A stretch of DNA of 37,948 nt, taken from Gloeocapsopsis crepidinum LEGE 06123. Its GTDB lineage: Bacteria > Cyanobacteriota > Cyanobacteriia > Cyanobacteriales > Chroococcidiopsidaceae. The translations under genes and the position numbers were made by a program. The stretch lies in contig NZ_JADEWN010000060.1 of assembly GCF_015207655.1 (NCBI RefSeq), positions 1 to 37,948 on the forward strand, read 5' to 3'. Within the stretch, counting starts at the first letter, position 1. Every line of letters begins with the position of its first letter. Shown piece after piece: positions 143 through 14,589 of this stretch. A model generated the notes under the pieces. The model ran no database searches, was not told the origin of the DNA, and worked only from the letters and a program-made list of their open reading frames with translations.

Positions 143-2866
143 CTATATTTCTTCTGAATTTTGCTGCTTTATGAGAGTAGATTCGTATTTAGCACACTGT
201 TGAATTAATCTAGCAACGATACCTGTCCAGGTTTGGTGAGATGCACCTATACCTGCACCATTGTCACCATGAAAATATTCGTGAAAAAGAATTAGATTGC
301 GCCAGTGAGGATCGTGCTGAAATTTTTCTGTACCATCATAACAAGGTCTTTGTCCAGATTCATCATGCAGAAAAAGTCGAATAAGTCGTTCAGATAGTTC
401 AACCGCAACTTCTTTTAAGGTGATTTCCCGACCCGACCCTGTAGGAAATTCAATTTTGAAGTCATCACCAAAATAGGAGTAAAATCGCTGGAGCGATTCA
501 ATAATTAGGTAGTTTATGGGAAACCAAATTGGTCCACGCCAATTAGAATTGCCACCAAATATGTTAGCAGTAGATTCGGCAGGTTGATAATCTACTCGAT
601 ACTCAGTTCCATTCACATTCATTGTGTAAGGATGATTTTGGTGAAATTTGGAAACTGAACGAATCCCATAGGGACTGAGGAATTCGCTTTCATCGAGCAT
701 CTTTTGTAGAATACGCCTGAGTTTATCTGGAAAGGCGATCGCTAGTAGTCTGCGTTCACCCACACCAGGAGTCTGCATACAAGCAATTTTCTGAGTTAGA
801 TCAGGACGATTTTGAATAAACCATTTTGTCCGCTGACTAAAGCCAGGAAATTGAGATAAAGTTTCCGATTCAATAATACCGATCGCAAATAGTGGAATCA
901 GCCCCACAATCGATCGCACTTTTAGCAATTCGTAACGTCCATCGGGAAAACGCAATGCATCATAGTAAAAGCCATCATGTTCATCCCATAAAGAAATATC
1001 TGATTGTCCAATACCATCAATGGCATCGGCAATGTAGAGAAAATGCTCAAAAAATTTGCTGGCAATGTCTTCGTAGGTCGGATTAAATTTCGCTAATTCT
1101 AAGGCAATCTCCAGCATATTGAGGCAATACATCGCCATCCAACTCGTACCATCTGCCTGTTGCAAATAACCACCTGTAGGCAGTTCAGCACTGCGATCGA
1201 AGATGCCAATATTATCTAAACCAAGAAATCCACCTTGGAAAACATTTCTACCTTCAACGTCTTTGCGATTTACCCACCAGGTAAAGTTGAGTAGTAATTT
1301 TTGAAAAACTCGTTCTAAAAAGTCTGTATCAGTACAGTTGTATAACTCTCGTTCGATTTTATAGATATTCCAAGCTGCCCAAGCTTGAACAGGCGGATTA
1401 ACATCATTAAACGCCCATTCATAAGCCGGAATTTGCCCATTGGGGTGCATATACCACTCTCGCAGTAAGCGCGAAATTTGCAGCTTGGCAAAACCTGGAT
1501 CGATCATTGCTAGTGGAATCAAGTGAAAGGCTAAATCCCAAGAAGCAAACCAAGGATATTCCCATTTATCGGGCATGGAAAGCACATCATCACTAAAAAT
1601 GTGAATCCAATCTGAGTTTCGTCCTTGATTACGGGCAACTGGAGGCGGCGGACTAGCCGGATCGCCTTTGAGCCATTTTTCAACGATGTAGTAATAAAAC
1701 TGCTTATTCCACAGTATTTCCGCAAATGCTTGTCGCTGAATCTGTCGCCGTTCTGAGGACATCTCAAATGGACAGATGCGATCATAAAATTCGTCGGCTT
1801 CTTGTAACCGAGTTTGAAAAATTTGATTAAATTCAGTTCCAAAAGGTGCATTTAATTCCGCAGCATCACTTAAGCGCAATTTTATCGTTTGAGTTTCGCT
1901 TGCATTAATTGATAACTGATAATGCGTTGCAACCTTAGTGCCTAGGCGTTGAGGATTAATAGCATCTTGGCGTTGGTGAATTAAGTAATCATGAAAAGCA
2001 TCTTTGACATAAGGAGACGCATTCTCAACCCCGAATAATTTCTGAAAGTTAGTTTCGTTTTCTGTAAATAGTAAGGAGAATTTTTGTGTGTTTGTTTGAT
2101 CGCAATACAGCGATCGCTGACCTAGCGTAGGATGAATCGCTGCAACAGTACTAAAATGACTTTCCTCAGAACATACTTTGAGAATAGGTTTTTCGCAGTC
2201 ATATCCCCAAGACCATGTATTGCGAAACCAAAGAGTCGGTAATAGGTGTAAAGTTTTAGCTTCAGATCCTCGGTTAGTGATGCTGATTTGAATTAGAATA
2301 TCTTCAGGTGACTTTTTAGCATATTCTACTTCCACATCAAAGTAGCAATTTTGATCGTCAAAAATTCCAGTATCAAGCAATTCGTATTCGAGAGAATGGC
2401 GGCTACGCTGTTGATTTTCTTGCACTAACTGATCGTAGGGAAACGCCGCTTGGGGATACTTATAAAGATATTTCATGTAAGAATGAGTCGGCGTATTGTC
2501 GAGATAGAAATAGTACTCCTTGACATCCTCGCCATGATTACCTTCATTTCCAGTTAACCCAAACAAGCGCTCTTTGAGAATTGAGTCTTCACCATTCCAA
2601 AGCGCAATCGCAAAACAAAGTCGTTGATGGTTGTCACAAATACCGGCAATACCATCTTCTCCCCAACGGTAAGCACGAGAACGCGCGTGGTCGTGAGGAA
2701 AATATTCCCATGCTGAACCATCAGCACTGTAATCTTCTCGCACTGTTCCCCATTGTCGCTCACTCAGATATGATCCCCAGCGAGTCCAGTAAGCCGTGCG
2801 ATCGCCTTTGGCGCTACGCTTTGCGTAATCGCGATTTGCTTGTAACCTCTGTTCTTCAGTGGTCAT
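143..2866 (-). CDS. GH63 / MGH1-like glucosidase (907 aa)
   Basis: A large cytoplasmic-type glycoside hydrolase with no signal peptide. The N-terminal ~350 residues look like a beta-rich domain with many aromatics (for example [10 protein letters not shown]). The remainder matches the (alpha/alpha)6 barrel of the GH63/mannosylglycerate-hydrolase-like clan: [49 protein letters not shown] and [15 protein letters not shown], with a closing [16 protein letters not shown]. The Asp in QADGTSW and acidic residues in the last third are where this clan keeps its catalytic acid and base; the exact assignment needs an alignment. The substrate is unknown, plausibly an alpha-glucoside or a compatible-solute glycoside such as glucosylglycerate. 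It is the last gene of the minus-strand run, 33 bp after the oxidoreductase. Near the N-terminus, KRSAKGDRT is encoded by a palindromic HIP1-type repeat (about 2797-2830). Confidence 0.85.
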
Positions 2867-2899
2867 AATTTGTTCTCAGGTTAAACTTAGCGAAGGTGA

Positions 2900-4441
2900 T
2901 TAAGAGAGTTTTGTCAGTAACCCTAAGAATTTTTGCGATGTAGGTGTTAAGAGTGTGCGACGATAAGCATCTGCGGCTTTTTTAATTCCTTCAGCTTGTG
3001 TAGGATAAGGATGAATTACACTTGATAAACCATTCAAACCGACCTTATTCACGATCGCTGTCGTCACCTCACTAATCATCTCTCCAGCATGAGAAGCCAC
3101 AATTGTCGCTCCGAGAATTTCATCAGAACCTTTTTTATGATGAATTTTGACAAAACCTGATTCTTCCCCATCAGCGATCGCGCGATCGACATTGCTCATT
3201 GAAATCTTGATAGTATCAACAGAAATTCCTTGAGACTGCGCTTGGTGGTCAGACATTCCGACATGCGCAATTTCTGGGTCAGTATAAGTTACCCAAGGCA
3301 TTACTAAGTTACTTAGTTTAGATCGTCCAAGACCAAAAGGAGAAAACAACGTATTTTTAATCACTATCCGTGCTGCTGCATCGGCTGCATGGGTAAATTT
3401 CCAATTCATGCAGATATCGCCTGCTGCATAAATATTAGGGTTCGTTGTTTGGAGATAATCATTAACTTGTACTCCCTGGCGATCGTACTCTACCCCGACT
3501 GCTTTTAAATTCAAAGATTCCACATTAGGAGCGCGTCCTGCACCAACTAATATCTCATCAACAACAATTGATTGTTTGGTTCCATTACTAGTGAAATAAA
3601 TCGTTTTGCCATCGGTTGACTTTTTCACCCGTTCTATTTGGCTATTCAATACCAGATGAATTCCTTCGTCGATAAAGGCATTTTGAATAATTTCAGCAGC
3701 ATCAGCATCTTCTTTATCTAACAAATGAGAATGTCGGTGAAACAAAATAACTTGACATCCCAAGCGACTGAAAGCTTGAGCCAATTCGCACCCAATGGGA
3801 CCACCACCAATGACTGCAAGACGTTTAGGGCGTTCAGTTAGTGAAAAAACTGTTTCATTAGTCAAAAATCCTGCTTCTTCAATTCCCTCTATTGAGGGAC
3901 GCACAGCTCTTGCCCCTGTTGCAATCACAGCTTTTTTATAACGTAGCGTTTTCCCCGCCACTTCAATAGAGTTATTTGCTAAAAAACGACCTGCTCCCAA
4001 AAAGACATCAATACCAAGTTTCTGGAAACGTTGAGCCGAATCATGATGGCTAATTCCTGCCCGCAATTTCCGCATCCGTTTCATCACTGCCGGAAAATCA
4101 ACCTCGATTTCTTGAGGAGGATGAATACCAAATGCTTGAGCATGACGCATCTCGCCAACGACACGCGCAGAACGGATGATGCACTTTGAAGGAACGCAAC
4201 CTACATTTAAGCAATCTCCGCCCATCAGATGTTTTTCAATTAAGGCGACTTTTAAACCCAAGCCTAAACCTGCTGCACCTGCGGCGACAACTAATCCAGC
4301 CGTACCTGCACCAATGACAACGAGATCGTAGCGATCGCTCGGTTGCGGATTGTTCCAATCAGGCGGATGAACGTAAGAAATCAACTTGTTGTTATATTCA
4401 TCCATCGGTGGAACAGTGACTTTTTGAAAGGCTGATGACAT
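2900..4441 (-). CDS. MerA-like FAD/NAD(P) disulfide oxidoreductase
   Basis: A class I pyridine nucleotide-disulfide oxidoreductase of 513 aa. Visible motifs in order: an FAD dinucleotide fold (VVIGAGTAGLVVAAG, ~res 42-56), the redox-active pair GGDCLNVGCVPSK (~res 75-87), an NAD(P) fold (AVIGGGPIGCELAQAF), a second FAD motif (AAGDICMNW) and the C-terminal dimerisation-domain His-Glu motif HPYPTQAE. It resembles proteins annotated as mercuric reductase, but it has no N-terminal HMA domain and ends LTKLS without the vicinal Cys pair that canonical MerA uses to bind Hg(II). Mercury reduction is therefore not supported; it more likely reduces another disulfide or electrophile. The ATG has a strong ribosome site (AGGAG, 6 nt upstream). 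It lies downstream of the peroxiredoxin-like gene and the two VTT genes, probably in one operon. Confidence 0.88.
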   Translation of the reverse strand: MSSAFQKVTVPPMDEYNNKLISYVHPPDWNNPQPSDRYDLVVIGAGTAGLVVAAGAAGLGLGLKVALIEKHLMGGDCLNVGCVPSKCIIRSARVVGEMRHAQAFGIHPPQEIEVDFPAVMKRMRKLRAGISHHDSAQRFQKLGIDVFLGAGRFLANNSIEVAGKTLRYKKAVIATGARAVRPSIEGIEEAGFLTNETVFSLTERPKRLAVIGGGPIGCELAQAFSRLGCQVILFHRHSHLLDKEDADAAEIIQNAFIDEGIHLVLNSQIERVKKSTDGKTIYFTSNGTKQSIVVDEILVGAGRAPNVESLNLKAVGVEYDRQGVQVNDYLQTTNPNIYAAGDICMNWKFTHAADAAARIVIKNTLFSPFGLGRSKLSNLVMPWVTYTDPEIAHVGMSDHQAQSQGISVDTIKISMSNVDRAIADGEESGFVKIHHKKGSDEILGATIVASHAGEMISEVTTAIVNKVGLNGLSSVIHPYPTQAEGIKKAADAYRRTLLTPTSQKFLGLLTKLS

Positions 4442-4482
4442 GACTAACTCCTAAAAACATTCAAAATTTCAAATAAGACAAC

Positions 4483-5004
4483 CTACTCTGTTCCACGCAC
4501 TGGATAGTTTTTCTTTAACACAAAATCGATGGACGACAGCATCTCCGAGATAGGTGGACGACCAAAAGGACCACTATTGATGGCAGCATAGAAAAGTATG
4601 CCGTCGGGTTTAACTAAGAAAAGACCTGGTTCGCAAAATAAAGGCGGTTCATTTTCAAACGCACCTTTAGAAATATAAAGTCCCCAACGACGCATTAAGT
4701 CAATACTTGCTTCATAGCCAATCGTCAGATTTTGAATTCCCCAGTCGTTTTGAGATTGTTGTGCTTTTTCTCGACTATCTCCACTCAAAGCGATGACATC
4801 AACGCCAAGATTAGCGAAATCCTCTAGGTGATTGGCAATTTCAGTTAGATAGCTTTGGCAAATTGGACAAAACCATCCCCGATAAAAAACAATCATTGTG
4901 AATTGGGGCTTCTGTTCAAGTTTCCAAAAATTACCATCAAGGGTTTTGACTTCAAGTTCTGGAATTTGAGTACCAGTCATTAATTTCGTGGGTGTTGCAG
5001 TCAT
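4483..5004 (-). CDS. Peroxiredoxin-like AhpC/TSA family protein
   Basis: A thioredoxin-fold protein of 173 aa. After a beta-rich N-terminus (IPELEVKTLDGNFWKLEQ) comes VFYRGWFCPICQSYL, with cysteines at residues 46 and 49. This is the 'peroxiredoxin-like' group that carries a CxxC in place of the usual PxxxTxxC peroxidatic site. A further conserved-looking segment is GVDVIALSGDSREKAQQS. It probably reduces peroxides or protein thiols in the cytoplasm; its electron donor is unknown, although the flavin disulfide reductase encoded 41 bp downstream is an attractive partner by position. The start has AAGG five bases upstream. No signal peptide is visible. Confidence 0.85.
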   Translation of the reverse strand: MTATPTKLMTGTQIPELEVKTLDGNFWKLEQKPQFTMIVFYRGWFCPICQSYLTEIANHLEDFANLGVDVIALSGDSREKAQQSQNDWGIQNLTIGYEASIDLMRRWGLYISKGAFENEPPLFCEPGLFLVKPDGILFYAAINSGPFGRPPISEMLSSIDFVLKKNYPVRGTE

Positions 5005-5024
5005 AGCTACCTTTAACTTGTTTA

Positions 5025-5831
5025 CTAATTCAAGTGAGCTTCAGTTTCCTGGTGTGTAGGCTCCAAAACTTGCTCTTCCAAAGCCTTACGAGCTAATTTA
5101 GTTACATATAGCGTGACGGCTACTGTAGCAATAAATCCTAAGATCCGAATTGTCCATTGCACAACAGGATTGTCAGGTTGAGCTTCAGTGCCAATTGTGG
5201 CAATACTTCCAGCTAAAGAACCGATATAAACGTACATAATTGTTCCAGGAATCATCCCTACCGAACCGATAAAGTAGTCCTTTAAAGAAACTCCTGTGAC
5301 GCCATAAGCGTAATTCAATAGATTAAACGGAAATATTGGAGAAAGTCGCGTCAGTAGCACAATTTTGAGTCCTTCTCTACCGACAGCTTGATCAATCGCT
5401 CGAAATTTTTTGTTTCCTGCAATTTTTTTAGCAACCCAGCCGCGTGCTAAATAGCGCCCGACGAGAAAAGCCGCTGTAGCACCTAACGTTGCACCAATAA
5501 AAACGTAGAATGATCCTAAAAAGACACCAAAAACAACACCAGCGCCAAGCGTAAGAATCGAACCTGGTAAAAAAGCGATAGTAGCAACGATGTAGAGAAG
5601 GATAAATGCGATCGCGCCAACTGTACCTAGACTATCAATCCATTGCAAGGCATTTCGCAGCCATCCTTGAGGATTAAACGCAACTCCATTAGCATCTTGT
5701 GCGAAAGCTGGGTCGGCAGCAACAAGGGCAATGCCAAAGGTAGCCAGCATCAAGATAGTCAATCTAAATAGCTTATTTAATCTAGGGCGACTATTTTTCA
5801 TGATTTTAGTGGTTAGTTTTATTGTGGACAT
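5025..5831 (-). CDS. TVP38/TMEM64 (VTT-domain) membrane protein, copy 1
   Basis: An integral membrane protein of the VTT/DedA superfamily. It has a hydrophobic N-terminal segment ending AFAQ (possible signal peptide), then several membrane helices around the family core: LPGSILTLGAGVVFGVFLG, a LVGRYLAR motif, LLTRLSPIFPFNLLNYAYG and MIPGTIMYVYIGSLAG. Some superfamily members are lipid scramblases; the role of this one is unknown. The frame is open up to 5870, but the ATG at 5831 has AGAGG just upstream and overlaps the preceding gene by 26 nt, giving 268 aa. An ATG at 5801 is the other option. The next gene upstream is a close paralogue, so this looks like a tandem duplication. Confidence 0.85.
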   Translation of the reverse strand: MSTIKLTTKIMKNSRPRLNKLFRLTILMLATFGIALVAADPAFAQDANGVAFNPQGWLRNALQWIDSLGTVGAIAFILLYIVATIAFLPGSILTLGAGVVFGVFLGSFYVFIGATLGATAAFLVGRYLARGWVAKKIAGNKKFRAIDQAVGREGLKIVLLTRLSPIFPFNLLNYAYGVTGVSLKDYFIGSVGMIPGTIMYVYIGSLAGSIATIGTEAQPDNPVVQWTIRILGFIATVAVTLYVTKLARKALEEQVLEPTHQETEAHLN

Positions 5832-6552
5832 TTGCCTCTGAAATACTTTGGTTGAGAGCTTTTTTAGCAAGGCGCGTCATGTAAATTGTCATGGCAACTG
5901 TAGCTATTACCCCAATGATTCGCATTACCCACTGCATAATTTGAGTCTCGGCAGTCATGGGACGATTGGACATATTAAGCGTGGCAAGATCGCTTGCAAG
6001 AGAACCAATGTAAACGTACATTACAGTTCCTGGAATCATGCCGAGGGAACCTAAGATATAGTCTTTGAGTGCAACTTGCGTAACTCCGAAAACGTAATTC
6101 AACAGATTAAATGGAAATATCGGAGAAAGACGTGTTAATAAAACAATTTTCCAGCCTTCTTGAGCAACAGCGCGATCTATTGCCTGCAATTGAGGATTTT
6201 TGCCAATCTGTTGATGAATCCAATTCCGCGATAGGTAACGTCCGAGGAGAAAAGCCCACGTTGCGCCCAGCATTGCAGCAATTAAAACATAAACTGAACC
6301 CCAAAAAATACCGAATAAACAACCGCCTTTGAGCGTTAAAATTGTGCCAGGGACAAATAACAATGTTGCAATGTTGTAGATGGCGATGAATGTAATAGGT
6401 CCCAAAATACCAAGACTTTTGACTGCAATTAACGATGTCTGCAAAAGTTCTTGCAGATTAAATGGTTTAAATGCGATCGCTGTGATGGCAACTAAACTAA
6501 CGATCGCGATTAGTTTGAGCCTGATATGGTATTGGCGGTTGAATTGAGTCAT
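5806..6552 (-). CDS. TVP38/TMEM64 (VTT-domain) membrane protein, copy 2
   Basis: A paralogue of the downstream copy: it shares GWKIVLLTRLSPIFPFNLLN, LGRYLSRNW, GMIPGTVMYVYIGSLASD and the same layout of hydrophobic helices. The frame continues up to 6600. The ATG at 6552 (MTQFNRQYH) gives about 248 aa, leaves room after the upstream stop at 6602 and has a GGGA-like site nearby, so I prefer it. The predicted start is basic and is followed by a membrane segment, as expected of an inner- or thylakoid-membrane protein. It overlaps the next gene by about 26 nt, which suggests translational coupling. The function is unassigned; membrane lipid or solute transport is the usual proposal for the family. 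Confidence 0.85.
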   Translation of the reverse strand: MTQFNRQYHIRLKLIAIVSLVAITAIAFKPFNLQELLQTSLIAVKSLGILGPITFIAIYNIATLLFVPGTILTLKGGCLFGIFWGSVYVLIAAMLGATWAFLLGRYLSRNWIHQQIGKNPQLQAIDRAVAQEGWKIVLLTRLSPIFPFNLLNYVFGVTQVALKDYILGSLGMIPGTVMYVYIGSLASDLATLNMSNRPMTAETQIMQWVMRIIGVIATVAMTIYMTRLAKKALNQSISEANVHNKTNH

Positions 6553-6601
6553 TTTTCCCGATTGTGAAGAAGCGATCGCCCAAGCGCTACTAACTTGCAA
6601 C

Positions 6602-7168
6602 TCAATTTGGTTTAGGAAAATTGCCCATAAGGTGAGTGAAGGTTACTTTGCCCATTTCACCAGGCATTTGACCGTGAGTTTGTTTGTCTGCATGATAAGC
6701 TGCTGCTAGTATTTGATAATTATTGTTAGCAGGCACGGTAATCGTTGCAGTCGCATTGCCTGTATTATCGGCTCTAAATTCGTTACCAGGAGTACCACCG
6801 GCAGGTCCCATATCCATTCCGACAAGTTTTTTGTTGACCCACCAGAAGGTGTAAAGTCCATTAGGAACTAAATTGCTTGCTTTGAGGGTAACGGTGTAAT
6901 TGCCAGATTGAACAGGCGATACAGAAACCTCACCAGTAGCATCAAGCCACTTTTCTTGCGTAACACCTTGGGGAGTGCCATCATCAGCAACAGCCGATAA
7001 CATTCTAGAGGTTCTTTGATTTTGTGCTGCTACTATAATTTGTGAAGTATCATCGCTGGTAGTTAAAGTGTTTTTTTGAGTTCTACCAGTTACTTTAGTG
7101 AGATTAGGTAATATTGCAGCAGATAACAAAAGGATCGATACACCACCGAGAAGAATTAAACGTTTCAT
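6602..7168 (-). CDS. Secreted beta-sandwich protein of unknown function
   Basis: A 188-aa protein with a classic signal peptide or membrane anchor (MKRLILLGGVSILLLSAAIL). No catalytic motif is recognised. The mature part looks like a single beta-sandwich: YTVTLKASNLVPNGLYTFWW, MDMGPAGGTPGNEFRADN, then TATITVPANNNYQILAAAYH and a His/Met-containing tail (HADKQTHGQMPGEMGK). The segment NLVPNGLYTFWWV...GNEFRADNTGNA resembles the C-terminal domain of the RskA-type anti-sigma factor encoded at 11172-11918 (NLTPLPEGQVYRLWGV...GEFRPDSQGRA). A ribosome site (AGGAAG) precedes the ATG. It stands at the head of the VTT/peroxiredoxin/reductase run. His and Met residues near the C-terminus could bind metal, but this is speculative. 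Confidence 0.75.
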   Translation of the reverse strand: MKRLILLGGVSILLLSAAILPNLTKVTGRTQKNTLTTSDDTSQIIVAAQNQRTSRMLSAVADDGTPQGVTQEKWLDATGEVSVSPVQSGNYTVTLKASNLVPNGLYTFWWVNKKLVGMDMGPAGGTPGNEFRADNTGNATATITVPANNNYQILAAAYHADKQTHGQMPGEMGKVTFTHLMGNFPKPN

Positions 7169-7315
7169 AAGTCAAACTTCCTTGTTGAATAATCCACTTG
7201 AGTTTTCCTCTTCTAATCGCTCAAAACAATTAACAGCGATTGCTTTTTCAGCAACAAATAGCAATAACTTGATCGCGTGTTTCCAAGACATTTAGCGATT
7301 AAAGATTTATAAATG

Positions 7316-7348
7316 ATACGAAGCCGATGTCAAAATGGATTTACTCAA
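7316..7348 (+). repeat. Single end of a dispersed inverted-repeat element
   Basis: This 33-nt stretch starts ATACGAAGCC and continues to GGATTTACTCAA. Counting by eye, about 27 of 33 positions match the left arm of the repeat at 10378-10512. It also matches, in inverted orientation, the right arm ending at 10512 (19 of the first 25 positions). It lies 106 bp downstream of the glycosyltransferase stop, so inverted copies of one element bracket the arsenosugar trio. No clear target-site duplication was seen. Confidence 0.55.
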
Positions 7349-7371
7349 ATGTGGCAATTGAAATAAAAAGA

Positions 7372-7446
7372 CTAATTCTTAGAAAAGCAGCATAAATCTA
7401 CAACAACTGTTCCTGTTGCGCTAGCAATTAGTACATTACGTTTCAT
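7372..7446 (-). CDS. Possible 24-aa ORF with a CC pair
   Basis: A short frame beginning 8 nt after the glycosyltransferase stop encodes MKRNVLIASATGTVVVDLCC and a few more residues. The start resembles that of a signal peptide, like the next gene's MKRLILL, and it ends shortly after two adjacent cysteines. There is no ribosome site. It may be a truncated remnant of a secreted-protein gene or simply chance; I would not treat it as expressed without transcript or proteomic data. Confidence 0.2.
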   Translation of the reverse strand: MKRNVLIASATGTVVVDLCCFSKN

Positions 7447-7453
7447 AGTTTTA

Positions 7454-8257
7454 TTATTTTAGAAAATTGATATTTAATATCAGTTTAGGAACTGACTTAA
7501 ACCACTGGCTTAGAGATAATTGCGATTGATGGCGATACCAGCGAACAAGTTTTTGGGGCGAAACTCCTAGTAAATATCCACAAATCACGATCTGATTAAT
7601 CAACGTCGTCTTGAAAATTCCTTTTTTCAACCACCGACGTGCTGATGTAACTACGGGGATAGGAATAATTGCAATATATCCTCTGCGTTTTAACCGACGT
7701 ATCAATTCAAAATCTTCCATAATTGGTAACTCTGGAAAGCCACCAAGCTGGTGAAATATTTCGGCTTTGAGAAAAATAGCTTGGTCGCCGTAGGGCATTT
7801 GTAAAAAGTGCGATCGCAAACTTACACCCCATTCAATTAACCGCAAACTTCTCAAAGGTGCATCAATTTGTAATGCAAACGCACCTGCAATAGGAATTTT
7901 TCTACAAGTCTGTAATGGATTTAGTGCAGCACGAATCATCGTGTCAAAATTAGCAGGTAAACGGGTATCACTATGCAAAAACAACAGAATTTCACCTGTT
8001 GCTGCGGTAACACCCATATTCATTTGACAAGCACGACCTCTAGGGGCTGACAAAACTTTGATACCCAACGACTGAACGAACTCAAGCGTACCGTCACTAG
8101 AACCACCATCAACAACAATTACTTCTACATTAGTATTTGGTTGAGTACTTGTTAGTACTTTTTGAATCGCTTCCATCTCATTAAGAACTGGAATGATAAT
8201 TGAAATCCTTTGAGGTGTTTTTGTTAAAATCACAAGTTTACGATACCTAACTTTCAA
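7454..8257 (-). CDS. TIGR04283-type arsenosugar glycosyltransferase
   Basis: A GT-A family 2 glycosyltransferase of up to 267 aa. It shows ISIIIPVLNEMEAI at the N-terminus, VIVVDGGSSDGTLEF, RACQMNMGVTAATGEILLFL and the metal-binding acidic motif HSDTRLP, then GDQAIFLKAEIF and PIMEDFELIRRLKRRG. This is the pattern of the glycosyltransferases found next to arsM and arsS in arsenosugar clusters (TIGR04283). It would act in the cytoplasm on an arsenic-containing sugar or its lipid acceptor; the exact reaction is not settled. The start is unclear: a TTG at 8257 overlaps arsS by 11 nt, and a GTG at 8233 (259 aa) is an equally good choice. It is translationally close-coupled to arsS. Confidence 0.85.
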   Translation of the reverse strand: MKVRYRKLVILTKTPQRISIIIPVLNEMEAIQKVLTSTQPNTNVEVIVVDGGSSDGTLEFVQSLGIKVLSAPRGRACQMNMGVTAATGEILLFLHSDTRLPANFDTMIRAALNPLQTCRKIPIAGAFALQIDAPLRSLRLIEWGVSLRSHFLQMPYGDQAIFLKAEIFHQLGGFPELPIMEDFELIRRLKRRGYIAIIPIPVVTSARRWLKKGIFKTTLINQIVICGYLLGVSPQKLVRWYRHQSQLSLSQWFKSVPKLILNINFLK

Positions 8258-9260
8258 CTAAAGCACCACCACAACTAGAACCACAACCTGCTGTACAGCC
8301 ATAGCAATAAGGTGCAGTTTGGATCTCGTTAATTAAATCTAAATTTCCAGCTTCTAGTAACTTAGCAACCGTTAGTATTTCGTTATTACGAGTTTTTGCC
8401 GGAAGATTTGCCATTTGGTTAAAGTCGCAGTCGTAGACGTTACCCAGATAATCAATTGAAAGCTGATTGCGACACATTAAATGTTCAACAGTACTAAAAT
8501 TAAAATGAGACTCTAAAAAATACAAATAAGGTTTGTAAAGATTTCTGCGTTCTAGATATAACTTAGTTCGTCCTATGGGCAAGTTAGTGATGGTTAATAG
8601 GTTGTTAAAGCAAATACCAAAATGTTCTTGTAAGAACATTTTGTAATCTCGTTCGAGTTCAACTTGTTGAGGAGCAAGTGCAAACTTTTCTGCAACGGGA
8701 AGTTGAGGATTATATACTAAATCTAGAATTAAGTTGGGTGCTTGACCATAGCCGAGATGGTTTAACCATTGCAGAGCGCGAATAGAAGTCTCAAAAACAC
8801 CATTTCCCCGCATTTTATCAACATTATCTGCAAGATAACAGGGAAGGGAAGCAACAATTTTTAGCTGATGTTGAGCGCAATATTCTGGGATGTCACTAAA
8901 CCCTGCTTCAAAATAAATTGTTAAGTTAGAGCGTACAATAACTTGTTTACCCTTGGCACGTGCTGCTGCGACAATAGGTTTAAAGCCATAAAGCATTTCG
9001 GGAGCGCCACCTGTGAGATCTACAACCTGAATTTGAGGAAAATGATTGATGAGTTTAATTATTTGGTGACAAACTTTTGGAGAAAGTTCTTCAGTTCGTT
9101 GTGGACTTGCTGAGACATGACAGTGAAGACAGGCAAGATTACAGCGTTTTCCCAGGTTAATTTGTAATACATTTATATGCTTTTTTGTCAAGTTTGAACT
9201 CAGTTTTCTAAATGGTGTTACGGCTGAATCTAAAGAAGCATTGATTGCTGACGATATCAT
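8247..9260 (-). CDS. arsS: Arsenosugar biosynthesis radical SAM protein ArsS
   Basis: A 337-aa radical SAM enzyme. The N-terminal cluster motif is CNLACLHC (CxxxCxxC), preceded by NVLQINLGKR and followed by HVSASPQRTE and VVDLTGGAPEML. The C-terminus has a dense cysteine set (YCYGCTAGCGSSCGG) and an upstream MCRNQLSIDYLGNVYDCDFN, typical of ArsS, which joins an adenosyl group to methylated arsenic on the way to arsenosugars. The ATG has AGAGG eight bases upstream. It follows arsM by 34 bp and overlaps or abuts the glycosyltransferase gene, so the three are almost certainly co-transcribed. All motifs expected for function are present. Confidence 0.93.
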   Translation of the reverse strand: MISSAINASLDSAVTPFRKLSSNLTKKHINVLQINLGKRCNLACLHCHVSASPQRTEELSPKVCHQIIKLINHFPQIQVVDLTGGAPEMLYGFKPIVAAARAKGKQVIVRSNLTIYFEAGFSDIPEYCAQHQLKIVASLPCYLADNVDKMRGNGVFETSIRALQWLNHLGYGQAPNLILDLVYNPQLPVAEKFALAPQQVELERDYKMFLQEHFGICFNNLLTITNLPIGRTKLYLERRNLYKPYLYFLESHFNFSTVEHLMCRNQLSIDYLGNVYDCDFNQMANLPAKTRNNEILTVAKLLEAGNLDLINEIQTAPYCYGCTAGCGSSCGGALVES

Positions 9261-9294
9261 TTTTTTTACCTCTTATTCATCAATTGATTAGACA

Positions 9295-10260
9295 CTAACA
9301 GCACCCGCCGCCATCGTAATACCAAGTTGAATTTGTGATAGTAATTTCTTCGGAAAATGATGCTAGTTTTATAGCAGTTTTATCGCACACAGCAGCAGGA
9401 ATACCTCGTTGTAAAAGATGTCCGGCTCCATCATCAAAAAAGGGTTTTGTTCCGGCATAAATAGCTGTTTTGCCTGTAAAAACACAAGCACCATCTTCAG
9501 GAATCGGGACTTTATAGGAAACTGTATCGAGACTTTCTAAGAGTAAATGCTCTTTTAATCTGTAGCTTTGAGAATCTAAGAGACGGTAAGGACGACGCGC
9601 TCGAATTTCAATTTGACCAAAGCCAGTATTGACGAGGTGTTTGATATATTGCTCATAAGTAAGTGCTCCTGATAGACACATTGCTCTTAGTCGTTCATCT
9701 TGTTGCAGGTGTTGGGGAATCGAACGAGTAGCAATAGGATCGCTCATCAGCAAGCGTCCTTGTGGTTTCAATACACGAAAAGCTTCTTTTAAAGCTAAAT
9801 GCAGATCTTGCGGTGTGAAAATATTAAATAGGCAATTTTGTGCTAATACATCAACAGAAGCATCGGCAACTGGTAGAGAAAAAGCATCACCTTCGCGAAT
9901 CTCAACAAAACTAGGATCGAACCAGGCATTTTCTTGGGCAGCAAGTTTGAGGTTACGAGTAGCTGCTTCGCGCATTGCTGTCACTGGTTCAACCGCAATA
10001 ACTGCCCCCTGACGGCGAGAAAAATAAGCAAACTGCAACGCTTCGAGTCCTCCACCAACCCCGACATAAAGTACAGTTGGAGCATGAGCGAGTTCCGTAG
10101 GGTGTACTGTCGTACCGCAACCGTAGTTCATCTGTTGCATTTGCAGAGGAATATTAAGTTCGGGTAGTTGCAGGGAACTGCTTTGGACGCAACACAAACC
10201 GACTTGTGGTGTTTGTGCAACTTCGCTATAAAACTGGGCAGTTGTTTCGAGATAGGTCAT
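9295..10260 (-). CDS. arsM: Arsenite S-adenosylmethionine methyltransferase ArsM (arsenosugar type)
   Basis: A 321-aa class I methyltransferase with the SAM-binding motif VLYVGVGGGLEALQFA, then VIAVEPVTAMREAA, a motif equivalent to DxxxxNCLFN (VDVLAQNCLFNIF) and EAFRVLKPQGRLLMSDP. Cysteines that could hold arsenite lie in VGLCCVQ, MNYGCGTTVHP and MCLSGAL, and the protein ends with a GGGCC tail seen in cyanobacterial arsenosugar-type ArsM. It adds methyl groups to trivalent arsenic, giving the dimethylated intermediate used by ArsS. The ATG has AAGGA five bases upstream. It heads the trio and is divergent from the sigma factor gene, sharing a 351-bp upstream region with it. Confidence 0.93.
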   Translation of the reverse strand: MTYLETTAQFYSEVAQTPQVGLCCVQSSSLQLPELNIPLQMQQMNYGCGTTVHPTELAHAPTVLYVGVGGGLEALQFAYFSRRQGAVIAVEPVTAMREAATRNLKLAAQENAWFDPSFVEIREGDAFSLPVADASVDVLAQNCLFNIFTPQDLHLALKEAFRVLKPQGRLLMSDPIATRSIPQHLQQDERLRAMCLSGALTYEQYIKHLVNTGFGQIEIRARRPYRLLDSQSYRLKEHLLLESLDTVSYKVPIPEDGACVFTGKTAIYAGTKPFFDDGAGHLLQRGIPAAVCDKTAIKLASFSEEITITNSTWYYDGGGCC

Positions 10261-10611
10261 TTAAATCCTTGGTGTAGATATCGTATGTTCAGATTTGAGG
10301 AGGCGATCGCAACAAGAAGACATATGGCGAAAAGAGCGATCGCTCTTAAGTCCACTCGTTGGGTTCTATCTTGGGTAATACGAAGCTAAAGCAAAAAAGG
10401 ATTTACTCAATTTGAGCAAAGATGTCAAAACGCTTGATTTTGCAGGTAAGAATCGAAGACAACAAAATGTTGATTGAATTTAACCACATCCTTTTTCAGG
10501 TTGGTTTCGTATCACTATTGAAGCCAAAATTATGGAGTTCAATCGCACTTAGATAAATTCTGAAATTCAAACTATAGATACTACTGCTTTGAGGTCAAAA
10601 CTTGGGTCTAA
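10261..10611. promoter_or_regulatory. Divergent arsM / sigma-factor intergenic region
   Basis: A 351-bp gene-free region that must carry the promoters of both arsM (leftward) and the ECF sigma gene (rightward). It contains a 16-bp perfect palindrome around a HIP1 core at 10332-10347 (AAGAGCGATCGCTCTT), about 70 bp upstream of the arsM start, then a 135-bp inverted-repeat element at 10378-10512. I could not assign promoter boxes or a classical ArsR/SmtB operator with confidence. The palindrome may be an operator or only an extended HIP1 site. Confidence 0.5.
10378..10512. repeat. 135-bp MITE-like element with 25-nt imperfect terminal inverted repeats
   Basis: The left arm starts ATACGAAGCTAAAG and ends AAAAAGGAT at 10402. 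The right arm (10488-10512) is its inverted copy, starting ATCCTTTTTC and ending TTTCGTAT. The arms match at 19 of 25 positions, with the outer 7 and inner 9 positions identical. The ~85-bp interior has no coding frame. A related end lies at 7316-7348. It looks like a small non-autonomous element or the remains of an IS. No obvious direct target duplication flanks it. Confidence 0.55.
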
Positions 10612-11169
10612 ATGATGCTATCCAATCAGACGGATACAGAGGTATTTCAATCGTTGCGATCGGGAAATCTGCTCGCTTTGGGTATTCTGTACGAACGCTA
10701 TGGAGAGGTTGTCTACCGAGTAGCACTGCGGATGTTAGGTAATGCTCAAGAAGCTGAAGATCTCACACAAGAAGTGTTTCTTTCACTCCTCGGCAGTGGT
10801 ATCTATGACCGCAGACGGGGTTCTATGGTGGTCTTTCTTACGACTGTCACTCGATCAAAAGCGATTGATCGCCACCGTCAGATTCGCGCGCAGTGGCAAC
10901 GTATTCAACGCTGGTTTCATAGTTCTTCTCCTGAGAGTGAGCGTGCTTTGATAGATAAAGTTGCTCTTAAGGAAATGTCTTGTCGCGTCCGCGAAGCATT
11001 CGCTGAATTATCTACCACTCAGCAGCAAGTTTTGGAAATGGCGTATTATGACGGTTTGAGTCAATCAGAAATTTCTGAAGAATTAAATATGCCTATCGGA
11101 ACCGTAAAGACACACAAGCGCAAAGGGTTGTTAAAGCTGAGAGAAATATTGCAAGATTTGGTGGAGTAG
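10612..11169 (+). CDS. ECF-type RNA polymerase sigma factor
   Basis: A 185-aa sigma factor with only regions 2 and 4. Region 2 (~res 20-95): GILYERYGEVVYRVALRMLG, EAEDLTQEVFLSLL and a stretch ending FLTTVTRSKAIDRHRQ. Region 4 (~res 130-180): AFAELSTTQQQVLEMAYYDG followed by the helix-turn-helix SQSEISEELNMPIGTVKTHK. It would direct RNA polymerase to a small stress regulon once released by its anti-sigma factor. The downstream anti-sigma gene starts 2 nt after its stop with a GGAG inside the sigma 3' end, so the two are translationally coupled. The start is ATGATG with only a weak ribosome site. The sigma-K/RskA-like pairing suggests an envelope or redox signal; the true inducer is unknown. 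Confidence 0.92.
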   Translation: MMLSNQTDTEVFQSLRSGNLLALGILYERYGEVVYRVALRMLGNAQEAEDLTQEVFLSLLGSGIYDRRRGSMVVFLTTVTRSKAIDRHRQIRAQWQRIQRWFHSSSPESERALIDKVALKEMSCRVREAFAELSTTQQQVLEMAYYDGLSQSEISEELNMPIGTVKTHKRKGLLKLREILQDLVE

Positions 11170-11171
11170 CA

Positions 11172-11918
11172 ATGGTATTTCGGGAATCTGAAGAAATTCA
11201 AGAACTTTTAGCAAGTTATGTTCTAGGTGACTTGACTCCAGAAGAAGTTGCTTCAGTCAATCAATTATTGGATTCTCATCCTGAATTACAAACTGAAGTA
11301 CGCTGCTTGCAAAATACATTAGGTTTGATTCCTTTGGCACTACCAGAAGCTGAGTTACCGCCAACGTTGGGATCTCGCATCTTGCAGACAGCATCAGGAC
11401 GTTCAACTGTAAGAGCAAATCGCGTAGGAACAAGGGCAAAAACTAGGTTGGGTGTTATTGGAACTGTCGCCGCCTCGGTTGTTGTCGGATTTAGCTTTTA
11501 TAGCTATCGCCTACACCAGCAAGTTGTTGCAACTCAAGCGGAACTTTCACAATATAAAAATGCGATCGCCTTACTGCGTCAACCGAGTAACCGTTTGCTT
11601 GCACTCCAAGGAACAAGTGCAATTCCTGCTGCTTCTGGAAGTTTAGTTGTGGTTCCCAATGCTGAGGCGATCGTTCTTACGCTTCAAAATCTCACTCCCC
11701 TACCAGAAGGACAAGTTTATCGATTGTGGGGAGTTGCCGATGGTGAAAAAATCTATTGTGGCGAATTTCGACCTGATTCCCAGGGAAGAGCTTTGGTAAA
11801 ATTTCCGCTTGATGCAGAAATCTCAGACTCTTCTGCTGTTGTGATTACTGTCGAACCATCACAAAGACTTTCTTATCCTACTGGGGAAACTGTGATGACA
11901 GGAAGTATATCACTGTAA
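11172..11918 (+). CDS. RskA-type transmembrane anti-sigma factor
   Basis: A 248-aa protein with a cytoplasmic N-terminus (EEIQELLASYVLGDLTPEE, an anti-sigma helical domain without the HxxxCxxC zinc motif), one membrane helix (VIGTVAASVVVGFSFYSY, ~res 94-111), a short coiled stretch and a C-terminal extracytoplasmic beta domain: AIVLTLQNLTPLPEGQVYR, LWGVADGEKIYCGEF and VVITVEPSQ. This matches the RskA C-terminal family. It should hold the sigma factor inactive at the membrane until the outer domain senses a signal and is cleaved. It converges on the lytic transglycosylase gene with 5 bp between the stops and no visible terminator. Confidence 0.9.
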   Translation: MVFRESEEIQELLASYVLGDLTPEEVASVNQLLDSHPELQTEVRCLQNTLGLIPLALPEAELPPTLGSRILQTASGRSTVRANRVGTRAKTRLGVIGTVAASVVVGFSFYSYRLHQQVVATQAELSQYKNAIALLRQPSNRLLALQGTSAIPAASGSLVVVPNAEAIVLTLQNLTPLPEGQVYRLWGVADGEKIYCGEFRPDSQGRALVKFPLDAEISDSSAVVITVEPSQRLSYPTGETVMTGSISL

Positions 11919-14199: not shown

Positions 14200-14589
14200 T
14201 TAGGGCAAAAATCTATCTAAGGCAGCTTTTAACTCTGCCATTTCTACTTCGATGTTTCCTTCTTGAGCAGCTCTTGTAATACACTCACTAAGATGTGCGT
14301 CTAAAATCATTCTGGCGACTCGATCTAATGCACCCCGTACTGCAGCAATTTGTACTAGTACTTCTGGACACGGGCGACTTTCCTGCACCATCGTTTTAAC
14401 ACCACGAATGTGTCCTTCAATACGTGACAAGCGATTAACGATGCTTCTGAGTGATTCCTCGCTGTGGACGTGGGGATGCACTGACGAATCCCCAAGGCGA
14501 TCGCCTACGCTATGGTTGTCGTGGCTATGGGAATGTTCCTCCCTGGTGATAGGCAATTTATCTTCTGCTAATCGATGAGAACGATTCAT
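14200..14589 (-). CDS. CsoR/RcnR/InrS-family metal-sensing repressor, His-rich N-terminus
   Basis: A 129-aa four-helix DUF156 repressor. The core runs SIVNRLSRIEGHIRGVKTMV, then RPCPEVLVQIAAVRGAL and DAHLSECI. The metal ligands expected of the Cu/Ni sensors are C74, H99 and C103. The N-terminal ~42 residues carry seven further His between residues 19 and 42 (EEHSHSHDNHS, VHPHVH). This resembles the nickel sensor InrS of Synechocystis, which uses an N-terminal His as an extra ligand, so nickel or cobalt is more likely than copper, though not proven. No efflux gene adjoins it in this window. A palindromic HIP1-type repeat (~14495-14520) encodes VGDRLGDS within the His-rich arm. No clear ribosome site is seen. 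Confidence 0.88.
   Translation of the reverse strand: MNRSHRLAEDKLPITREEHSHSHDNHSVGDRLGDSSVHPHVHSEESLRSIVNRLSRIEGHIRGVKTMVQESRPCPEVLVQIAAVRGALDRVARMILDAHLSECITRAAQEGNIEVEMAELKAALDRFLP

Follow-up and report, generated by a model that had tools for sequence, protein, structure and literature searches.

Arsenosugars and arsenolipids occur widely in algae and seafood, and we know of no established enzymes for the steps that follow ArsS, including the passage from arsenosugar to lipid. Why should genes of arsenosugar synthesis stand in one file with membrane proteins and a disulfide reductase? The question is raised by a stretch of 37,948 nucleotides from the cyanobacterium Gloeocapsopsis crepidinum LEGE 06123 (contig NZ_JADEWN010000060.1, positions 1 to 37,948 of the forward strand), hereafter the window; the genome assembly comprises 5.67 Mb in 150 contigs, and all coordinates are window positions. 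Eight co-directional genes run on the minus strand from 10260 down to 2900: arsM, arsS, a TIGR04283 glycosyltransferase (GT), a secreted protein (SEC), two VTT membrane proteins (VTT1 and VTT2), a peroxiredoxin-like protein (PRX) and a MerA-like reductase (MERL). The chromosomal linkage of VTT with ArsS, MERL and GT is conserved, and the position of VTT and a disulfide reductase beside the arsenosugar genes, in this cyanobacterium as well as in various unrelated bacteria, suggests that the pathway has a membrane and redox branch not yet described. We estimate the probability that the eight genes constitute one arsenosugar/arsenolipid module at about one half. All eight genes lie where an initial annotation of the locus had placed them, and family scans upheld the names it gave; its interpretation is partly supported overall. 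The eight genes are as follows.

9295..10260, minus strand: arsM, arsenosugar-type arsenite methyltransferase (NF038099, 573 bits, cut-off 400)
8247..9260, minus strand: arsS, radical SAM enzyme of arsenosugar synthesis (TIGR04167, 410 bits, cut-off 300; DUF3641)
7454..8257, minus strand: GT, TIGR04283 family glycosyltransferase (264 bits, cut-off 182)
6602..7168, minus strand: SEC, predicted secreted protein, a sporadic accessory (no Pfam or NCBIfam match at E 0.001)
5806..6600, minus strand: VTT1, VTT/DedA membrane protein (PF09335, 101 bits, cut-off 33.9)
5025..5870, minus strand: VTT2, VTT/DedA membrane protein (PF09335, 101 bits, cut-off 33.9)
4483..5004, minus strand: PRX, peroxiredoxin-like CxxC protein (AhpC-TSA PF00578, 62.8 bits; C46-P-I-C49)
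2900..4441, minus strand: MERL, FAD disulfide reductase, MerA-like (NF004991, 877 bits, cut-off 620)

ArsM, ArsS and GT thus each exceed the curated arsenosugar cut-offs, and MERL exceeds that of the FAD-containing oxidoreductase family NF004991.

VTT genes around arsS

The ArsS profile TIGR04167 was sought in 386 genomes, with 174 above the cut-off. We read up to 20 kb around ArsS at 80 of the 94 non-picocyanobacterial matches listed, excluding the locus of the window itself and including a second arsM-arsS copy of the same genome. Of these 80 loci, 18, representing 8 family groups, have a VTT gene no more than 3.5 kb from ArsS, with 24 matches in 549 kb, whereas only 2 matches in 672 kb occurred at 5–9.5 kb from ArsS in the same loci. 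VTT genes are common, the window's genome having five, and the arsS loci were sampled from related genomes, which might have produced the association by chance or as an annotation artefact. Five VTT genes in a 5.67 Mb genome, however, would place a VTT gene nearby in about 0.5 loci. This expectation and the nearly VTT-free distal bins lead us to reject chance linkage, and the same pattern recurs across several phyla; we therefore consider chance or artefact extremely improbable.

Clustering of all neighbours within 5 kb, unbiased by family, identified VTT as the commonest gene downstream of ArsS (17/80), with ArsM (51/80) and a response regulator (20/80) found mainly upstream. In two genomes (G051 and G366), the sole VTT gene detected is the one directly after arsS. 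Two picocyanobacterial genomes, read further because of a prior MERL-like match near ArsS (L183 and L184), encode a fused VTT-MERL at a distance of about 5 kb from ArsS, and an ArsM-like match lies beyond the fusion.

The linkage extends beyond cyanobacteria. An ArsS profile scan of named genomes gave 583 confirmed loci, the best 80 of which comprise 28 cyanobacterial loci and 52 from other phyla (Pseudomonadota, Myxococcota, Planctomycetes, Acidobacteria, Omnitrophota, Latescibacteria and others); two of the 28, both lacking VTT, were already among the 80 loci above. A VTT gene accompanies ArsS at up to 3.5 kb in 8 of the 28 and 21 of the 52 loci, and at 5–9.5 kb there was no match in 180 kb and 318 kb, respectively. 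Gene orders judged by eye placed a MERL-type reductase, fused or separate, directly after VTT in 20 of the 52. When these 52 loci were clustered without prior families, a VTT-reductase/reductase cluster was present in 25, although some of its members are ordinary reductases, followed by GTs in 22 and ArsM in 12. Among the loci examined for gaps, that between ArsS and VTT is below 600 bp in 36, and VTT lies downstream of arsS in 34 of them, in most cases as the very next gene. VTT genes near ArsS occur in Cyanobacteriota, groups of Pseudomonadota, Myxococcota, Phycisphaerales, Pedosphaera, Oligoflexia and Latescibacteria. The initial annotation had proposed surveying the neighbourhood of arsS for VTT and MerA-like genes, and the survey revealed a strong enrichment for VTT and for VTT-reductase units.

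Two other neighbours of arsS were noticed. About 1 kb upstream, 10 of the 80 cyanobacterial loci encode a protein (e.g. 8423-9382 in L044) that we take from its sequence to be PiT-type phosphate permease-like, with similar proteins in L219 and L267. Five of the 52 other-phyla loci (L228, L239, L250, L260 and L272) have an S-methyl-5'-thioadenosine phosphorylase-like gene beside arsS, identified by a family scan in L272 and by clustering in the other four; the encoded enzyme might act on the ArsS product to release adenine.

The reductase, the glycosyltransferase and rearranged clusters

From the side of the reductase, the same 386 genomes gave 92 matches above the NF004991 cut-off, spread over 89 genomes; 38 of these matches lie outside the loci read. 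Forty MERL loci, among the best-scoring, were read over up to 20 kb in 39 genomes, mostly from one family group. VTT lies within 3 kb upstream of MERL in 38 of the 40, and in 21 GT stands just before VTT, giving the order GT-VTT-(VTT)-MERL. The TIGR04283 identity was upheld for both cyanobacterial GTs tested from such loci. The ArsM-ArsS-GT trio of the initial annotation holds in the window, but GT accompanies ArsS in only 1 of the 80 cyanobacterial loci and is instead a recurrent partner of VTT-MERL. Ten further, shorter MERL stretches, including the fusions L183 and L184, have VTT adjacent in nine cases; L183 and L184 also contain a full arsS, and their VTT and reductase form a single polypeptide. 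The same VTT-reductase span was covered in 50 of 60 matching genomes in the class of L250, a Burkholderiales metagenome-assembled genome whose class we infer to be Gammaproteobacteria (185 genomes). Fusions in other bacteria, which the initial annotation had mentioned, do therefore exist, as PMC10127716 also states.

Is the run of eight genes nevertheless two units placed side by side? The initial annotation had left room for an independent VTT/redox half behind the 285-bp gap between GT and SEC. The remaining junctions are tight: ArsM-ArsS 34 bp, ArsS-GT an overlap of 11 bp, SEC-VTT1 1 bp, VTT1-VTT2 an overlap of 65 bp (with uncertain TTG starts), VTT2-PRX 20 bp and PRX-MERL 41 bp. We found neither a terminator-like site nor a promoter above shuffled background within the 285-bp gap, and promoter-like matches across 2700-10700 numbered 13, fewer than the mean of 18.1 in shuffles. 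Rearranged clusters in other genomes are more informative. L065 reads in one direction ECF-ASIG-SEC-VTT1-arsM-arsS-VTT2-MERL, where ECF is a sigma factor gene and ASIG an anti-sigma gene, with just 7 bp between arsS and VTT2. The orders are VTT1-arsM-arsS-VTT2-MERL in L047, VTT1-MERL-arsM-VTT2-arsS in L046 and arsM-arsS-SEC-VTT2-PRX-MERL in L162. Since L065 interleaves nearly all the genes, the gap is not a boundary between unrelated units. The genome of L162 has GT beside another VTT, far from the L162 cluster, and G282 carries a GT-VTT pair apart from its above-cut-off MERL. VTT is thus paired with arsS, MERL or GT depending on lineage, which fits a shared pathway and argues against two independent units.

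VTT1 and VTT2 are 48% identical. In a phylogeny of 62 VTT proteins, obtained by thinning a set of 153 and rooted on L277, ArsS-linked and MERL-linked VTTs are intermingled; among the six labelled unlinked, L277 is the root and L275 basal, and L276, L302, L295 and L057 fall inside. Because most sequences were picked for being linked, the tree is no gauge of specificity. Further VTTs near arsS in L041, L055, L073, L206, L208, L210, L212, L216 and L220 form a clade separate from VTT1 and VTT2, and several of these are the second member of a tandem pair. Neither fold nor sequence of VTT gave a useful match among solved structures.

MERL retains a redox pair, C77/C82 (CxxxxC), invariant among 10 aligned sequences. 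Mercuric reductase MerA carries a C-terminal vicinal Cys pair. MERL has its last Cys at residue 344 of 513, so the MerA-type pair is absent, in agreement with the initial annotation. The solved structure nearest to MERL by sequence is MerA (5x1y, E 1e-85). The missing pair and a TIGR02053 score of 406 bits, below the cut-off of 454, rule out a true mercuric reductase.

SEC and PRX are more sporadic. SEC homologues lie within the clusters L065 and L162, but SEC matches in just 5 of 194 genomes, its own counted, rule it out as a core part. Its predicted model (pLDDT 67) has a weak Cu,Zn superoxide dismutase-like fold at low confidence (Foldseek best E 2.2e-4, TM scores 0.36/0.44), and kinship with the anti-sigma RskA_C domain was unsupported (BLASTP E 0.016). 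Within the 50 MERL-anchored loci, a PRX homologue was found in L159 and L162 only.

A possible membrane and redox branch and its alternatives

By their established family functions, ArsM methylates arsenite and ArsS adds a 5'-deoxyadenosyl group, the arsenic adenosylation of arsenosugar synthesis (PMC12159101). GT would then couple the arsenosugar to an acceptor, for which a membrane lipid, for example phosphatidylglycerol, is the likeliest candidate, and the VTT proteins might handle the membrane-bound product or flip it between leaflets or membranes. We propose flipping because other VTT/DedA proteins act in this way, as phospholipid scramblases in eukaryotes and undecaprenyl-phosphate flippases in bacteria, and members of COG0398 are fused to disulfide reductases (PMC10127716, available text). 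MERL, with PRX where present, may act at the membrane as an NAD(P)H-FAD disulfide reductase and hold the thiol-arsenic chemistry in a reduced state, for instance by regenerating a dithiol for the conversion of pentavalent methylarsenicals to As(III). More specifically, the VTTs directly after arsS could be dedicated arsenosugar phospholipid flippases or scramblases and, together with GT and a membrane-docked reductase, provide the missing membrane branch of arsenolipid synthesis across phyla; we offer this proposal tentatively, as possible but doubtful.

Genome-level co-occurrence is consistent with the single module to a certain extent. Among 129 non-picocyanobacterial Cyanobacteriia, 85 genomes have both ArsS and MERL, 29 ArsS only, 3 MERL only and 12 neither (Fisher p 6e-5). 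In the class of L250, ArsS and a VTT-MERL fusion match co-occur in 48 genomes, with 46 having ArsS only, 12 the match only and 79 neither (p 2e-8), and the two lie within 10 kb of each other in 7 of the 48 against 0.3 expected.

Several observations weigh against the single module. The evidence is genomic context, and shared ancestry inflates every p-value, so that all are optimistic. Of the 80 cyanobacterial loci, 62 lack a VTT at up to 3.5 kb from ArsS; among the 18 positive ones, the VTT of L036 is short with an internal stop and that of L081 is divergent and 3.3 kb away. A full arsS is found within the stretch in only 1 of the 40 MERL loci (L162), leaving 39 without. Around the second arsM-arsS pair of the same genome, on another contig (G000:C40:50884-51861) and with an ArsS 73% identical, no VTT, GT or MERL was found in the 20 kb read. 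ArsS is present in all 57 picocyanobacteria, none of which carries an above-cut-off MERL, although 4 show a stronger fusion-type match; inclusion of the 57 changes the table to 85/86/3/12 and weakens the co-occurrence to p 0.02. VTT is likewise absent from all 30 picocyanobacterial ArsS loci of 3.9 kb. The fused reductases tested fall short of the NF004991 cut-off, and 10 of the 60 matches in the class of L250 span the reductase part only, without which the table becomes 39/55/11/80 (p 5e-6). Finally, the predicted model of VTT2 (mean pLDDT 76.6) has no match in the PDB at E 0.001.

How much of this could be accounted for without a VTT protein that moves an arsenical lipid? The reductase might be the essential component, possibly with PRX, its electrons keeping dimethylarsenic trivalent for ArsS, and VTT might do no more than anchor it in the membrane or let lipophilic arsenicals in, without any flipping. 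The substrate of ArsS is trivalent arsenic, MERL has kept the active-site pair of disulfide reductases, and both the single polypeptides of L183, L184 and the class of L250 and the VTT-then-reductase order in other phyla speak for such a scheme. Against it, VTT directly follows arsS without an above-cut-off MERL in G051, G366, G119, G114, G103, G253, G170 and G141, and the GT-VTT pair of G282 is apart from MERL. Those eight genomes keep a weaker relative elsewhere (~510–540 bits), a possible substitute. Still, the position of VTT after arsS in such genomes (G051, G119, G114 and G141) favours product handling over a mere anchor, and we consider the scheme centred on the reductase unlikely.

VTT-MERL might also be a broad membrane unit for thiol-redox or metal tolerance, residing in a metalloid island outside arsenosugar synthesis. 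In the class of L250, 12 of the 60 genomes with a reductase match lack ArsS, and in 41 of the 48 genomes with both, the pair does not fall within 10 kb, in some because of contig breaks; VTT-MERL is therefore not exclusive to arsenosugars, which speaks for such a unit and against a dedicated module. The retention of ArsS without MERL in picocyanobacteria, the position of MerA as the closest solved relative, and the framing of DedA-reductase fusions as aerobic metabolism in the available text of PMC10127716 point the same way. A loose island, however, would not be expected to display a fixed position after arsS, interleaving with arsM-arsS and a recurrent pairing with TIGR04283 GTs, and we judge this explanation distinctly unlikely. 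Should the arsenosugar/arsenolipid module prove true, some members of the poorly understood VTT/DedA superfamily would gain a specific cargo. The membrane protein and reductase that accompany arsS in several phyla are concrete candidates ready for knock-out.

Regulatory neighbours and known systems

Divergent from arsM lie two possible regulators.

10612..11169, plus strand: ECF sigma factor (NF009172, 232 bits, cut-off 222)
11172..11918, plus strand: anti-sigma factor with RskA_C domain (PF10099, 82.6 bits)

Homologues of the ECF gene stand at the head of the interleaved cluster L065 and also occur in L162 and L184, accompanied by the anti-sigma gene in all three. ECF-type sigma factor genes, grouped by the neighbour clustering, lie near arsS in 5 of the 52 other-phyla loci (L231, L242, L248, L251 and L270; family scan on L242 only), an echo of the pair in the window. 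A gene not far from the eight-gene run, at 14200-14589 on the minus strand and named from its sequence only, encodes a CsoR-like metal-responsive repressor. The GH gene at 143-2866 was excluded from the module, although it is just 33 bp from MERL, because among the loci read its homologues, one close to ArsS (L056) and one close to MERL (L180), are both on the opposite strand.

Among known systems, MerA shares with MERL the CxxxxC pair and is its closest solved relative; MERL differs by falling below the family cut-off and by lacking the C-terminal Cys pair. The COG0398 DedA/TVP38 proteins of PMC10127716 share the VTT domain and a fused or adjacent disulfide reductase, VTT1 and VTT2 being likened to them by domain only. 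That paper ties DedA-PF07992 fusions to aerobic metabolism, and its main text does not contain 'arsen'. The literature searched, mostly outside subscription journals, yielded no paper among those listed that joins arsenosugars with VTT/DedA proteins (DedA, TVP38, VTT or SNARE-associated); of three listed papers that mention both arsenosugar and mercuric reductase, PMC5398495 is unrelated.

Synechocystis PCC 6803 offers a ready test organism. Its arsM is slr0303, not induced by arsenic in one study (PMC4010505) and induced after two weeks according to another report cited in PMC4284471; slr0304 is hypothetical (PMC3516471), and slr0305 is a Tvp38/DedA protein linked to thylakoid membranes (PMC3836016). 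The numbering suggests an arsM-X-VTT run, an arrangement also encountered in our survey. The main text of PMC3836016 does not contain 'arsen', nor that of PMC4010505 'slr0305' or 'DedA'.

A close known counterpart is the arsM-arsS arrangement with TIGR04283/TIGR04282 described by the NCBIfam arsenosugar families. The eight-gene run has no TIGR04282 gene and shares with these families ArsM, ArsS and GT, each above its cut-off. To this set, the window adds two VTT proteins, a disulfide reductase, PRX and SEC, with the ECF/anti-sigma pair alongside.

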